Shown: positions 3,482 to 7,600 of the stretch, one piece after another | How positions within the stretch are numbered: position 1 is the first letter of the stretch | Layout: every line of letters begins with the position of its first letter | Made by a program: the position numbers and the translations under genes | The notes under the pieces: model-generated | Seen by the model: only the letters and a program-made list of their open reading frames with translations | What the model was told of the DNA's origin: nothing | Databases searched by the model: none | Assembly (NCBI GenBank): GCA_003010405.1 | Contig: PJLO01000003.1 | Span: forward strand, 1-64,000 | Direction of reading: 5' to 3' | Source: Acidobacteriota bacterium | GTDB taxonomy: Bacteria; Acidobacteriota; Terriglobia; Terriglobales; Acidobacteriaceae | DNA: 64,000 bases

Positions 3482-3588
3482 TCTCGGGTGGTTTATAAGG
3501 TCTCCGCCGCACCCCCGGCGAACATTGGCTTTTTCGACCCGAATTCCGAAGCTCTTGAGGTGGTGCACAGACTACAGTCATTGAGACG

Positions 3589-4440
3589 CTAATCCGAAAT
3601 CCACGCTGCAGGAATTAATTTATCCCCAGATGAGCGCCAATCCCTTACTTTCTCGACAACATTTTCGAGTCCAGTCCAAGTAGTTTCGTCAGCGTGCTCC
3701 AGCACAATTATCTGGAGATCGAGAGGTGTGCGAGTTCTAACACGCACAAGTAAATCAAACATTCTGTGCGTTTTGGCGAGATCACTTGATCGGTCTCGCA
3801 CTGGCTTTCCCAGACCACTCGATTGTGTGGAGACCTCAACAGTCTCACGGAACGTATCACTCGGGAAAAAAACTTGGCTGGGCTGGTCTATGACAATAAA
3901 GTTCGGCACGGGATTTTCCTGACCGCGTTTTGCAAAGTACTCGTGGAGTGCTAGAAGAGCAGCTAAATGGTACCCCATCCAATTGGCACCGCTTCCAATC
4001 TCCCACAAGAACTCACCATGCCGGTTCTCGGACGCATTAAGCGGACAAAAAAGAACATTAAGCTCCCTCGTGTCAATTGTTGGTACGAGATCGGTGTGAC
4101 CTAATCCGAGAAACTCTGCATGTTCCTGCATTAACTCACCGATAACCCGGACAGGGTCATCCGATGTGATTCGCTGACGGTACAAATCCAGTTGTTCGCG
4201 CAACTCTTTCACCTGCTGCACGAGCCGTTTATGTTGCTCCGATAGGCCACCGCTGTCTTCGACTTCCTTGATTGCCTTAAGAGCCTGTCGCACTTCTCCT
4301 ACGAAGCCAAAGACATCCTCAAGCCGCTGTCCCGCCGACACGCCGACTTGGGGTCGGGAATCAATTTCGAGTTCTTGTCGTATGCGGCGGGTCGCAAACA
4401 GTCGCTGCTCCAAAAACCGGATCGACTCCTCCAGTTCCAA
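3589..4440 (-). pseudogene. C-terminal part of a DUF3732 (SMC-like) protein, missing its ATP-binding half
   Basis: The frame encodes the end of a DUF3732 protein: a coiled-coil region (about residues 1-110), then IGSGANWMGYHLAALLALHEYF and PNFIVIDQPSQVFFP, the ABC-signature-like and Walker B-like segments of that family. Full-length relatives have roughly twice this length and begin with a Walker A domain, which is absent here. The frame opens at a TGA just upstream of about 4460, inside the end of the neighbouring gene, and only a TTG at 4440 offers a start. DUF3732 proteins are known as the SMC-like component of some ABC-3C conflict systems. I infer a deletion that removed the N-terminus. 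Confidence 0.6.
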
Positions 4441-5188: not shown

Positions 5189-5262
5189 CACGCCACAGAT
5201 AACGTATCCGGGGCAAGAAACAAGAGCACGACGAGCAGGATAATGAATATGATAATGGCCAC
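5188..5262 (-). CDS. 24-residue single-span membrane peptide
   Basis: A GTG at 5262 is preceded by a strong ribosome site (GAGGAGAAGCAAGTG). The frame encodes a 24-residue peptide that is almost entirely Ile/Leu/Val/Phe for the first 16 residues and ends APDTLSVA. This is one membrane helix. Its TGA overlaps the ATG of the downstream membrane protein, and it starts 10 bases after the stop of the upstream small peptide. The ribosome site and coupling are the main reasons to believe it. It could be a small membrane subunit or a leader frame controlling the next gene. Confidence 0.6.
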   Translation of the reverse strand: MAIIIFIILLVVLLFLAPDTLSVA

Positions 5263-5272
5263 TTGCTTCTCC

Positions 5273-5460
5273 TCACAGTACCAGTGTGCCGTAATAAATA
5301 TTGTTGGTTCTGACTGCCATCCCGTTTAGAAATGCAACCTGCGCCTGTTGCTGAGCACAGAGAAACCCTTTCGCAGAGCCATTCGGAGTTGCACCGTAGC
5401 CAGTTGGCTCGGTTGCTGGGTTGCAAATACAGGCGACAGCAGCATGCCACTGTCGCCCAT
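5273..5460 (-). CDS. Small Cys peptide B, apparently frameshifted near its start
   Basis: An ATG at 5460 sits 8 bases after GAGGA, which overlaps the stop of peptide A. In that frame only a 44-residue, Arg-rich product is read. One extra G in the GGG run at 5456-5458 would instead give a 62-residue peptide reading MGRQWHAAVACICNPATEP, with a Gly/Asn/Ala-rich centre, a third Cys in GFLCAQQQ, and an end NNIYYGTLVL that stops inside the ribosome site of the next gene. That frame has no start of its own. I infer a shift, natural or a sequencing error. It could be a second substrate of the radical SAM enzyme: its ACICNP resembles ACNCP of peptide A. Confidence 0.5.
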
Positions 5461-5471
5461 CGGAGTTATCC

Positions 5472-5573
5472 TCAGCCTGCGCGGTAGTTAATGCCGCACG
5501 CAGATTGGGTCGATTTTGGGCAGTTACACGCGGTATTCAGCGTGTAGTGCTTAGCTTTGACAGTCAGCTTCAT
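5472..5573 (-). CDS. 33-residue Cys-containing peptide A, candidate precursor of the radical SAM enzyme
   Basis: The ATG at 5573 follows an excellent ribosome site (AAAGGAGAAAGCTGTA) that lies within the end of the radical SAM gene. The peptide begins MKLTVKAKHYTLNT, a basic leader-like part, and ends ACNCPKSTQSACGINYRAG, with Cys at about 16, 18 and 26. It overlaps the radical SAM gene by 23 bases, so the two are co-expressed. Short Cys-rich peptides next to SPASM enzymes are commonly modified substrates (sactipeptides, ranthipeptides). I know no family with this sequence. The precursor role is inference from position, size and Cys content. Confidence 0.6.
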   Translation of the reverse strand: MKLTVKAKHYTLNTACNCPKSTQSACGINYRAG

Positions 5574-7041
5574 TACAGCTTTCTCCTTTCCTGCCTGCCT
5601 GCTCACGTTGGGTATTCGCCCAAACGTGTGCCAGCGTGCAGGCATAATCCGTTGGTTTGCAAAAGTCGCCATGTTCGGCGTGCCATGCGCCCGGACACCG
5701 ACTGCAATAAGCGAAATCCGGACACTCACCGCATTGCGGAATGTCGCATAGCCGTATGGCTCCAAATTCAGCGAAGAACTTCGAGGATCGCCAGATTTCC
5801 GAAAGACTGTTCTGAGGCCATCTACCAAGAGGCACATTCATCCCGATGCACGGACGAATTGTTCCGTCAGGAGAAATGCAGAGTCCCGCAGCACCTGCTC
5901 CACACAGACTTGCTTCCGGCGAAGGACGTGTGAGCGTAAACAGAGCCTCATCCCCGGCGTACAGCTTGTAATATTGCGAAGCGAAAATCTCCTTTAACAG
6001 CGTTATGTCCTCAACTCTCTGGGAAACCGGAGAGAGACCGCCGTCGTTCTTGGCCGTAATGCTGAGATCGAACTGATATTCGCAGTCCAGCTCTCGCGCC
6101 AATCGTTCGATGTCGCGCCAGTAGGGAGCTGTTGAGCGCAACAAGGGGCTCTTCAGGATTACCGGGATTCCTGCGGAGCGCAGGGCTTGAATCGAGCGAA
6201 CGGAACTCGCAAATGACCCTTTGCTTCTTGTGACCGCATCGTGTAGTTCTGAGTTCGCAGCGTAAATGCTGCACCCGACAGAGCGAGGATGAAGGTCGGC
6301 GACTGCACGAAGGATATCGTCGTTGAGCAGTGTGAGATTGCTTGTGATGCTCGTGACGAAGCCGTATGCCTTAACGATGCTCAAAATATCGAGGATGTCT
6401 CGGCGGACAAACAACTCCCCGCCCGTCAACTGGAGCAGGAGCCCACCCAAGCTTGAGAATTCTCCGAGCAGCAACTCAATTTGCTTCGTAGAGAGTTCAC
6501 TGAGATGAGTGTCGGAAGGCAGGTAGCAGTGGACGCAGCGTTCGTTACAGCGATATGTCAGCTCAAGAACCAAGCTGTAGAGTATGTGGTGGTCGGCCAT
6601 GAACTGGCCGATTTCAAGCTCCGGGTTCTCGGTCGGGTCTGCCCCCTGTTTAACAGAAATCACTTTCGCTGTGACTGCATCGCGCCGGATATGGTATCCG
6701 TTCTGCCCGATAAGCTGTGCCTTTTCCAATTCTTCTAAGAAGTTGGTCAGTGCGTCACGAGCCTCGGTTTCGCGATTCTCAAACGTGCCGTGTTGTCGAA
6801 TGTATTCAAGAGCTGCATCGCAATCTCCTTGAGCCGTGTAAATGCGCCACCAGACCTCGGCTGAATCGCCCTCGAAGAAAAGAACTGATTGACTCGGCGT
6901 GTGGTACGCAACGGAGACTGTTTCTCCATCAGGAATTGAGTACTTCCGGGTAACGACGCCACTGGAAATGTTTGCAACCGGAAGTGACCGTAATTGCTCG
7001 CCAGCGGACTGCAAATAAGCCTGTTCGTTGTTCTTCAACAC
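5551..7041 (-). CDS. Radical SAM/SPASM peptide-modifying enzyme
   Basis: The 496-residue enzyme has a PqqD-like or peptide-recognition region at about residues 20-110, then a radical SAM core with CNERCVHC (Cys 165, 169, 172) for the 4Fe-4S cluster and TGGELF (about 206-211) for SAM binding. A SPASM domain follows, with Cys at about 380, 388, 398, 432, 437, 440, 446, 449, 461 and 468 for auxiliary clusters. This is the architecture of PqqE-like and sactionine-type maturases, which form Cys or backbone crosslinks in small peptides. The GTG at 7041 has AAAGGCAGG upstream. Two small Cys peptides follow directly, and an XRE regulator is divergent. The class is secure; the product is unknown. Confidence 0.9.
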   Translation of the reverse strand: MLKNNEQAYLQSAGEQLRSLPVANISSGVVTRKYSIPDGETVSVAYHTPSQSVLFFEGDSAEVWWRIYTAQGDCDAALEYIRQHGTFENRETEARDALTNFLEELEKAQLIGQNGYHIRRDAVTAKVISVKQGADPTENPELEIGQFMADHHILYSLVLELTYRCNERCVHCYLPSDTHLSELSTKQIELLLGEFSSLGGLLLQLTGGELFVRRDILDILSIVKAYGFVTSITSNLTLLNDDILRAVADLHPRSVGCSIYAANSELHDAVTRSKGSFASSVRSIQALRSAGIPVILKSPLLRSTAPYWRDIERLARELDCEYQFDLSITAKNDGGLSPVSQRVEDITLLKEIFASQYYKLYAGDEALFTLTRPSPEASLCGAGAAGLCISPDGTIRPCIGMNVPLGRWPQNSLSEIWRSSKFFAEFGAIRLCDIPQCGECPDFAYCSRCPGAWHAEHGDFCKPTDYACTLAHVWANTQREQAGRKGESCNEADCQS

Positions 7042-7140
7042 GACCTGCCTTTCAAAAATGAGCGCACGAAATGAGGCGATTGGATAGACCAGCTAATCTG
7101 CTCGTGGTGAAAATGCACGTACAACTCTACAAATCAAAGC
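7042..7140. promoter_or_regulatory. Divergent promoter region between the radical SAM operon and the XRE regulator
   Basis: About 100 bases separate the GTG starts of the two divergent genes. AT-rich stretches occur on both sides (TTTCAAAAAT near 7053; CTACAAATCAAAG near 7127), but I cannot fix -35/-10 pairs or an operator palindrome. Control of the operon by the adjacent regulator is inferred from arrangement. Confidence 0.4.
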
Positions 7141-7419
7141 GTGGCAAATCAAGCAGAATTCTTCCTCGCTCTTGGAATCAAAGTGCGCGAGCTTCGCCGA
7201 AAGTGCGGCTACTCGCAAGAGGACATGATTTCTTTCGGGTTCTCTGCTCGCCACTGGCAGCAAATCGAGGCCGGTCGCCCCATTACTGTCTCGACCCTGC
7301 TACGCATTTGCGAGGTGTTCGAAATAACAATGTCAAAGTTGGTTCGTGGTCTGGACAAGGGAATTTACGAGCAGCTCGATGTCCATCTGGCACCGCGTCG
7401 GCGGAGACGCCGCACCTAG
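7141..7419 (+). CDS. XRE-family helix-turn-helix regulator
   Basis: The 92-residue protein is essentially one XRE (lambda Cro/CI type) domain: LGIKVRELRRKCGYSQEDM, then the recognition helix region FSARHWQQIEAGRPITVS, and TLLRICEVFEITMSKLV. A basic tail (RRRRRR) ends the protein. The start is a GTG. It is transcribed away from the radical SAM operon and probably regulates it, itself, or both. The size suits a small DNA-binding repressor without a ligand domain. Confidence 0.85.
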   Translation: MANQAEFFLALGIKVRELRRKCGYSQEDMISFGFSARHWQQIEAGRPITVSTLLRICEVFEITMSKLVRGLDKGIYEQLDVHLAPRRRRRRT

Positions 7420-7428
7420 AATCTGGCC

Positions 7429-7600
7429 TCAATCCTCCAGTTTGAAGAACTCGTTTAGCTCGGCCGCAAGCGACTCTGAGAACAACAACATAGGGCAGTG
7501 CGGATTGATGCATTGTGAATTTCTCCAGACCATTTCATTGACCTGAGCCGGGGCGATACCCATTTCGTCGGCTATTTTTAAACACAATACCGTTCTTCAT
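7429..7600 (-). CDS. Small Cys protein interrupted by one extra base in an A5 run
   Basis: An ATG at 7600 follows GGGGGGAG. The frame reads MKNGIVFK and then hits stops, but removing one T from the T5 run at 7575-7579 (plus strand) gives 56 residues: MKNGIVFKIADEMGIAPAQV, then a middle with NSQCINPHCPMLLF, ending LNEFFKLED. The restored peptide looks natural. It is convergent with the XRE gene. CINPHC loosely recalls the Cys motifs of peptides A and B, but the rest is unrelated. The shift may be real decay or a homopolymer error. Function unknown. Confidence 0.45.

Follow-up and report, generated by a model that had tools for sequence, protein, structure and literature searches.

A probable RiPP precursor peptide beside an RRE-fused radical-SAM/SPASM maturase in an acidobacterial genome

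Introduction

Does the 33-codon open frame at the end of a radical-SAM gene encode a peptide, and if so, is this peptide what the adjoining enzyme works on? We studied this question for a stretch of 64,000 nucleotides from an Acidobacteriota genome (the window). The original prediction, made from this DNA alone, had proposed a precursor peptide with a basic, leader-like part, cysteines at residues 16, 18 and 26, and a strong ribosome site located within the last part of the maturase gene. An open frame of 33 codons carries no weight by itself, its conservation does. Genes that short are easily overlooked; the window peptide and the six others tried are all without a matching NCBIfam model. A respective enzyme-substrate pair would be of manageable size and, with natural variants from five phyla, would lend itself to a test of the bond made by a branch of radical-SAM enzymes with fused RRE that is still uncharacterised.

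Peptide gene

The predicted 33-residue peptide is indeed encoded, with the minus strand, which the prediction had left open, as its coding strand. The frame extends from an ATG (5573-5571) to a stop codon that ends at 5472 and yields the sequence MKLTVKAKHYTLNTACNCPKSTQSACGINYRAG. The peptide is laid out as a leader (about residues 1-15, including Tyr10) and a core (about residues 16-33), which comprises C16, C18, S/T22 and C26-G-I-N-Y30-R31, i.e., it ends with the tail CGINYRAG. The peptide gene and the radical-SAM gene overlap by 23 nt, and the ribosome site anticipated within the maturase gene end is present there (AAAGGAG, 5589-5583). A purine-rich ribosome site precedes the peptide start in all 12 loci that carry the peptide, where the other loci show AGGAGG or a close variant. 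The coordinates of all features are listed in Table 1.

The window also contains a 24-residue hydrophobic open frame with a GTG start and a GGAG site (5262-5188, minus strand), located in the interval that separates the peptide gene from the following gene.

Table 1. Coordinates of the peptide gene, its maturase and the adjacent regulator candidate within the window.
Feature	Position	Strand	Basis or remark
Putative precursor peptide gene, 33 aa	5472..5573	minus	same peptide beside maturase in 12 loci; purifying selection
Shine-Dalgarno site AAAGGAG, inside maturase gene	5583..5589	minus	9 nt to peptide ATG
Radical-SAM/SPASM maturase with fused N-terminal RRE, 496 aa	5551..7041	minus	
RRE domain, residues 20-112	6706..6984	minus	predicted fold vs. 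TbiB1; Pfam PqqD in relatives
Radical-SAM core, residues 160-295	6157..6564	minus	C-x3-C-x2-C at 165-172
SPASM domain, residues 380-441	5719..5904	minus	
Small XRE/Cro-type HTH gene, probable regulator	7141..7419	plus	divergent from maturase

Occurrence among relatives

Maturase relatives were collected by an alignment scan of 84,980 species genomes, and the best 80 of 479 relatives were examined as loci. Three close maturases are found among these 80, i.e., L056 (63% identity; Verrucomicrobia subdivision 3), L057 (50%; Nitrosomonadales) and L058 (46%; Calditrichaeota), and in each of them the same small gene follows the maturase (the L056 peptide is MKLKMKAKRYVLNAACGCTKNSQGMCGITYRNG). A motif scan of the relative loci and the window added five loci from Bacillota metagenome-assembled genomes (L059, L063, L067, L075, L077), and the peptide of L127 was recognised in a list of small Cys-containing frames. 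For an independent test, we used peptide profiles only (A2 from nine peptides, A4 from ten). These identified G1067 (E 8e-13) and G1156 (E 8e-14). In both, the peptide adjoins a maturase from this family, with 29% and 65% identity to the window maturase, respectively.

In total, 12 loci including the window carry the peptide, with 11 distinct sequences. Besides the window's Acidobacteriota, the hosts are Verrucomicrobiota, Pseudomonadota, Calditrichota and Bacillota. That is, the check suggested along with the prediction (the same frame beyond homologous radical-SAM genes, with Cys kept) was passed in 12 loci from five phyla. The named relatives with the peptide are all either uncultured or known as metagenome-assembled genomes. 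Binning errors could therefore misplace an individual host, while the overall pattern would stand.

The gap between the maturase stop and the peptide is -23 to +41 nt in 11/12 loci. In L058, the gap is larger (+289 nt) as the result of a tandem duplication: positions 3540-3846 of this locus hold the precursor region twice, and the first copy is truncated, i.e., it retains the leader and the first Cys before it stops early.

The peptide family is rare. With a profile threshold of E < 1e-10, matches are found in 1/295 genomes around G531, 3/297 around G535, 2/146 around G528, 1/150 around G529 and 1/236 around G534. Around the window, the count is 1/150, i.e., the window's own peptide. Except for G1067 and G1156, all hits below this threshold are previously known loci. 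Since chance hits of the profile reach up to about E 1e-5, hits with E values from 1e-5 to 5e-3 were excluded from the count; a second G1156 hit (E 1.3e-5) lies antisense inside a protein gene and was rejected. The search of plasmids for the peptide gave no match. L061 was also left out of the 12 loci, given its C-x7-C-G-I without Tyr-Arg. The respective frame of L061 starts about 19 nt before the radical-SAM stop and encodes a variant peptide that ends with AGCGKTGTSSCGIRDKNG; its maturase is placed outside both peptide clades of the tree described below.

Conservation of the peptide

The 11 distinct peptides share the core C-x3-[S/T]-x3-C-G-[I/V]-x-Y-R. Using window numbering, Cys18, Cys26, Gly27, Ile/Val28 and Arg31 are present in 11/11, and the C-x7-C spacing is fixed throughout. 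Tyr30 (His in L127), Ser/Thr22 (Phe in L067) and Lys/Arg20 (Gln once) are each found in 10/11, while Gly33 is found in 8 of the 10 peptides that are long enough to reach this position. The number of cysteines per peptide ranges from two to four. With regard to the predicted cysteines, all three are present in the window peptide and two of them are invariant, whereas Cys16 is kept in only 8/11. The basic leader-like part holds for the window peptide and its nearest kin but not beyond, i.e., leader basicity is not conserved across the 11 peptides. What is kept instead is Tyr10, found with fixed spacing in 10/11.

We also evaluated whether the window peptide can be recovered from the six-frame translation of the 64 kb window by profiles from which it was excluded. 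This is the case for the profile of the three non-Bacillota members (E 1.2e-15), that of the six Bacillota members (E 6.6e-9), and that of all nine others then known (E 2.4e-13). The next-best window matches of these profiles are at E 0.014 or weaker.

The peptide is under purifying selection. When window and L056 are compared, 20/33 residues are identical (best of 100,000 shuffles: 12), and the respective codons show a pS of 0.81 and a pN of 0.28. The codons of the L063 and L077 peptides differ by 6 synonymous and 0 nonsynonymous changes.

Domains and structure of the maturase

The maturase is single in its genome, where the other four matches score at most 60 bits (vs. 1145). Pfam reports both Radical_SAM and SPASM for 9/9 maturases tried and PqqD for 3/9. 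The model of the whole protein has a mean pLDDT of 77, and its best structural match is the thioether maturase CteB (Z 24.6, rmsd 3.5, 314 aligned, 18% identity). SuiB (Z 23.2, rmsd 4.5, 378 aligned) and SkfB (Z 23.3, rmsd 5.5, 345 aligned) also match, with alignments that include the N-terminal domain. Here, Z values that differ by 1 or less were treated as tied.

Most full-length structure matches covered residues 133-472, and we therefore modelled the N-terminal domain separately. Folded alone, it reaches a pLDDT of 95, and its model is closest to lasso-peptide RREs that were solved leader-bound, i.e., TbiB1 matches with Z 12.1 and rmsd 1.8 over 82 residues. The match of this domain to CteB is weak (Z 5.2-5.6). 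A viperin-like label given to the maturase by PADLOC (46 bits) was set aside, since it reflects the shared radical-SAM core. The maturase search of phages gave no match, and viral contigs hold only distant radical-SAM proteins (24-27% identity).

Maturase tree and gain of the cassette

The tree was computed for 46 maturases, namely the 12 with the peptide and 34 chosen from 73 without it. The peptide-linked maturases form two supported groups (5/5 with support 100/100 and 7/7 with support 98/84), neither of which contains a peptide-less maturase. The two clades are not sisters, such that the peptide label requires two changes on the tree. Within its clade, the window maturase clusters with L184 and L056 (98/97), which both belong to one order of Verrucomicrobiota.

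Maturases with 30-35% identity are found in 26/150 related genomes of the window's family (the window's own included). They were considered as a guide to the precursor and rejected, as they represent another group with other peptides. A maturase match on a Photobacterium plasmid (29%) was likewise discarded; it is located outside both peptide clades. Given that no other peptide match is found among the window's relatives and that integrase and resolvase genes are located near the cassette in the window, the cassette was likely gained horizontally.

Neighbouring genes

A small XRE-type HTH gene is divergent from the maturase in the window as well as in L059, L063, L075, L077 and L127. L174 has an XRE-type HTH one gene further away, and L067/L177 a weak HTH match 1.2 kb upstream. 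An HTH profile trained on the window, L075, L127 and L174 matches 3/8 untrained peptide loci (two of them near-identical) and 1/73 peptide-less loci; BLAST finds no similarity between the window HTH and the Bacillota HTHs. Whether a divergent XRE-type repressor controls the cassette in several hosts is a question to which we give about even chances.

For region 5200-7600, the promoter scan found no sigma-70-like site. The region shows six terminator-like sites (vs. 2.6 expected), none of which is convincingly placed. Pfam was run on 20 neighbours, including 10 window proteins, and identified neither an exporter nor a leader peptidase. GT9 glycosyltransferase genes adjoin the cassette in two phyla (L184, 3938-5152; L058, 945-2054), i.e., glycosylation of the product is conceivable. 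At 3589-4440 (minus strand), the window encodes a DUF3732 protein for which the PADLOC match covers only the C-terminal part of Lamassu LmuB (profile 381-608 of 611); it is probably a fragment.

Proposed function and alternatives

We consider it quite probable that the peptide is a RiPP precursor and that the gene ahead of it encodes the respective maturase. The locus shows the general features of RiPP systems, i.e., a short peptide gene that is linked to an enzyme across taxa, and a maturase with RRE, radical-SAM and SPASM domains. The precursor reading of the original prediction is thereby strengthened by linkage and conservation across the 12 loci, and on the same sequence-based grounds we infer that the peptide is, with high likelihood, the substrate of the adjoining enzyme.

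According to the proposed mechanism, the leader would dock on the fused RRE with Tyr10 as its anchor. Subsequently, the radical-SAM centre with the SPASM clusters would modify the core C16-x-C18-x3-[S/T]22-x3-C26-G-[I/V]-x-Y30-R31. Lasso RREs bind leaders via a YxxP motif (PMC13381572, PMC10368454). By analogy, Tyr10 may act in place of this motif, though the resemblance concerns the Tyr of the anchor only: it is kept and the RRE fold is lasso-like, but Pro is found at position 13 in 0/11 peptides. As neighbours that could export the product or remove the leader were not recognised, other genes of the cell would have to provide these functions, or the product would act intracellularly.

The likeliest product would contain thioether cross-links at Cys, of the kind found in ranthipeptides or sactipeptides. 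The core consists of two C-x3-X units, i.e., C18-x3-[S/T]22 and C26-x3-[Y/H]30, and PapB joins Cys to Asp/Glu within Cys-X3-Asp/Glu motifs (PMC9413430). Thioethers are our first guess because the spacing agrees with the PapB linkage. On the other hand, residues 22 and 30 are S/T (or Phe) and Tyr (or His) rather than Asp/Glu, and thioethers leave the strong conservation of G27, I/V28 and R31 unexplained. Overall, thioether chemistry on the core may hold or fail with similar probability.

The peptide could also be a precursor in whose tail C-G-[I/V]-x-Y-R the enzyme forms a carbon-carbon bond (Ile28-Tyr30 or Tyr30-Arg31), with the cysteines being free, in a disulfide or metal-bound. This would account for a tail in which G27, I/V28 and R31 are found in 11/11 and Tyr30 in 10/11 peptides, and it can draw on the MftA C-terminus IDGMCGVY (PMC11162802) as well as on the Arg-Tyr crosslink of the RRR system and the Val-Tyr link made by MftC in mycofactocin (PMC9062424). 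We find such a tail bond doubtful, as Cys18 and Cys26 are no less invariant than the tail, the Tyr is not C-terminal as it is in MftA, one member replaces Tyr30 by His, and the mycofactocin maturase model (MftC) scores only 79.7 of the 265 bits of its cut-off. Unlikely, too, is a new RiPP class that derives from a minimal mobile cassette of an XRE repressor, an RRE-radical-SAM-SPASM enzyme and a 33-40 residue peptide. Here, the radical enzyme would rebuild the invariant C-G-[I/V]-x-Y-R tail in addition to the cysteines and thereby form an undescribed type of cross-link. Instead of being exported as a bacteriocin, the product would perhaps serve inside the cell as a small cofactor or signal.

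In our view, it is very unlikely that the peptide is not a substrate and instead serves the enzyme as a small partner that has a metal-binding or regulatory role. Its cysteines and the fact that no peptidase or exporter was recognised beside its gene would fit such a partner, but the predicted leader-binding RRE fold of the maturase speaks against it, as does the peptide itself, which varies in its N-terminal part and is conserved in its C-terminal core, as is usual for RiPP precursors. Finally, the 33-residue frame would be a chance reading if the true gene were a longer one in the +1 frame that was broken by an indel. Although this frame is open for 87 codons (5536-5273) with a protein-like translation, we regard this as extremely improbable: it has no usual start codon until its last 15 codons, its codon score is -0.008 (maturase: +0.112; peptide: +0.073), and no relative is found in L056-L135 or plasmids. 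The 150 related genomes provide only weak scattered matches outside the window's own genome (E of at least 0.003), and 8-residue patterns of the frame have no match in the genome and viral contigs. A frameshift between both frames was rejected, since the 99-residue construct (first 14 residues of frame 0 followed by the +1 frame) has no relatives and frame 0 is conserved.

Comparison with known systems

Ranthipeptides (PapA/PapB, CteA/CteB) resemble the precursor-maturase pair considered here in the radical SAM/SPASM maturase beside a short Cys peptide and in the C-x3-X spacing. They differ by their six motifs (vs. two invariant Cys here), by Asp/Glu in place of S/T and Tyr, and with regard to the C-G-I-x-Y-R tail. 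Sactipeptides (SkfA/SkfB, AlbA) have the enzyme architecture in common, but the window maturase scores far under the respective cut-offs (AlbA 72.9 of 850, SkfB 46.5 of 300), and sactipeptide core sequences differ from the core of the window peptide. For streptide (SuiA/SuiB), the likeness is that SuiB is the top Foldseek match of the maturase over almost its full length. Streptide chemistry is a Lys-Trp link, which is not possible for the window peptide since it is without Trp.

Mycofactocin (MftA/MftC) shares Cys-Gly-aliphatic followed by Tyr close to the C-terminus. In contrast to the MftA ending, the tail CGINYRAG continues after Tyr with Arg and further residues, and the RRE is fused to the maturase. 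The two- and three-gene radical-SAM pathways of Kostenko et al. 2022 (PMC9062424) are similarly minimal enzyme-peptide cassettes, but the Aro-X-X-Asn, Asp-Cys, H(Y)NR and TVGG motifs named for them do not match. The same holds for the three-residue cyclophane motif (Aro-X-Asn type), whose third residue is not kept: position 32, two residues after Tyr30, is T, A, V, N, S, M or Q. An unnamed cluster of the earlier network surveys of this enzyme subfamily (PMC9062424) may include the window system. A Bacillota RiPP family with lasso-like leaders (2026, PMC13381572) is a different system, and its text does not mention radical SAM.

Pfam gives a single match for the window peptide, which does not reach the cut-off. 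One search of the main text of open-access literature found CGINYR, CGITYR and CGISYR in no paper.

Other small peptides were observed near related radical-SAM genes. L055 (3486-3602, plus strand) and L135 (about 179 nt before the radical-SAM gene) encode the conserved peptide CRPNSKPSGRPCNPPxPxGR; the hosts are a Photobacterium plasmid and an Oscillospiraceae metagenome-assembled genome, and both enzymes cluster in the tree. Bacteroidales peptides with PTGSYAAGCP or PSGSYAAGCP and more Cys are found in L106, L109 and L125, at most about 550 nt from related radical-SAM genes. Finally, L006/L065, L064, L104, L112 and L122 show peptides with [FY]ETxALACxK and later Cys near an acidobacterial/Rokubacterial maturase group.
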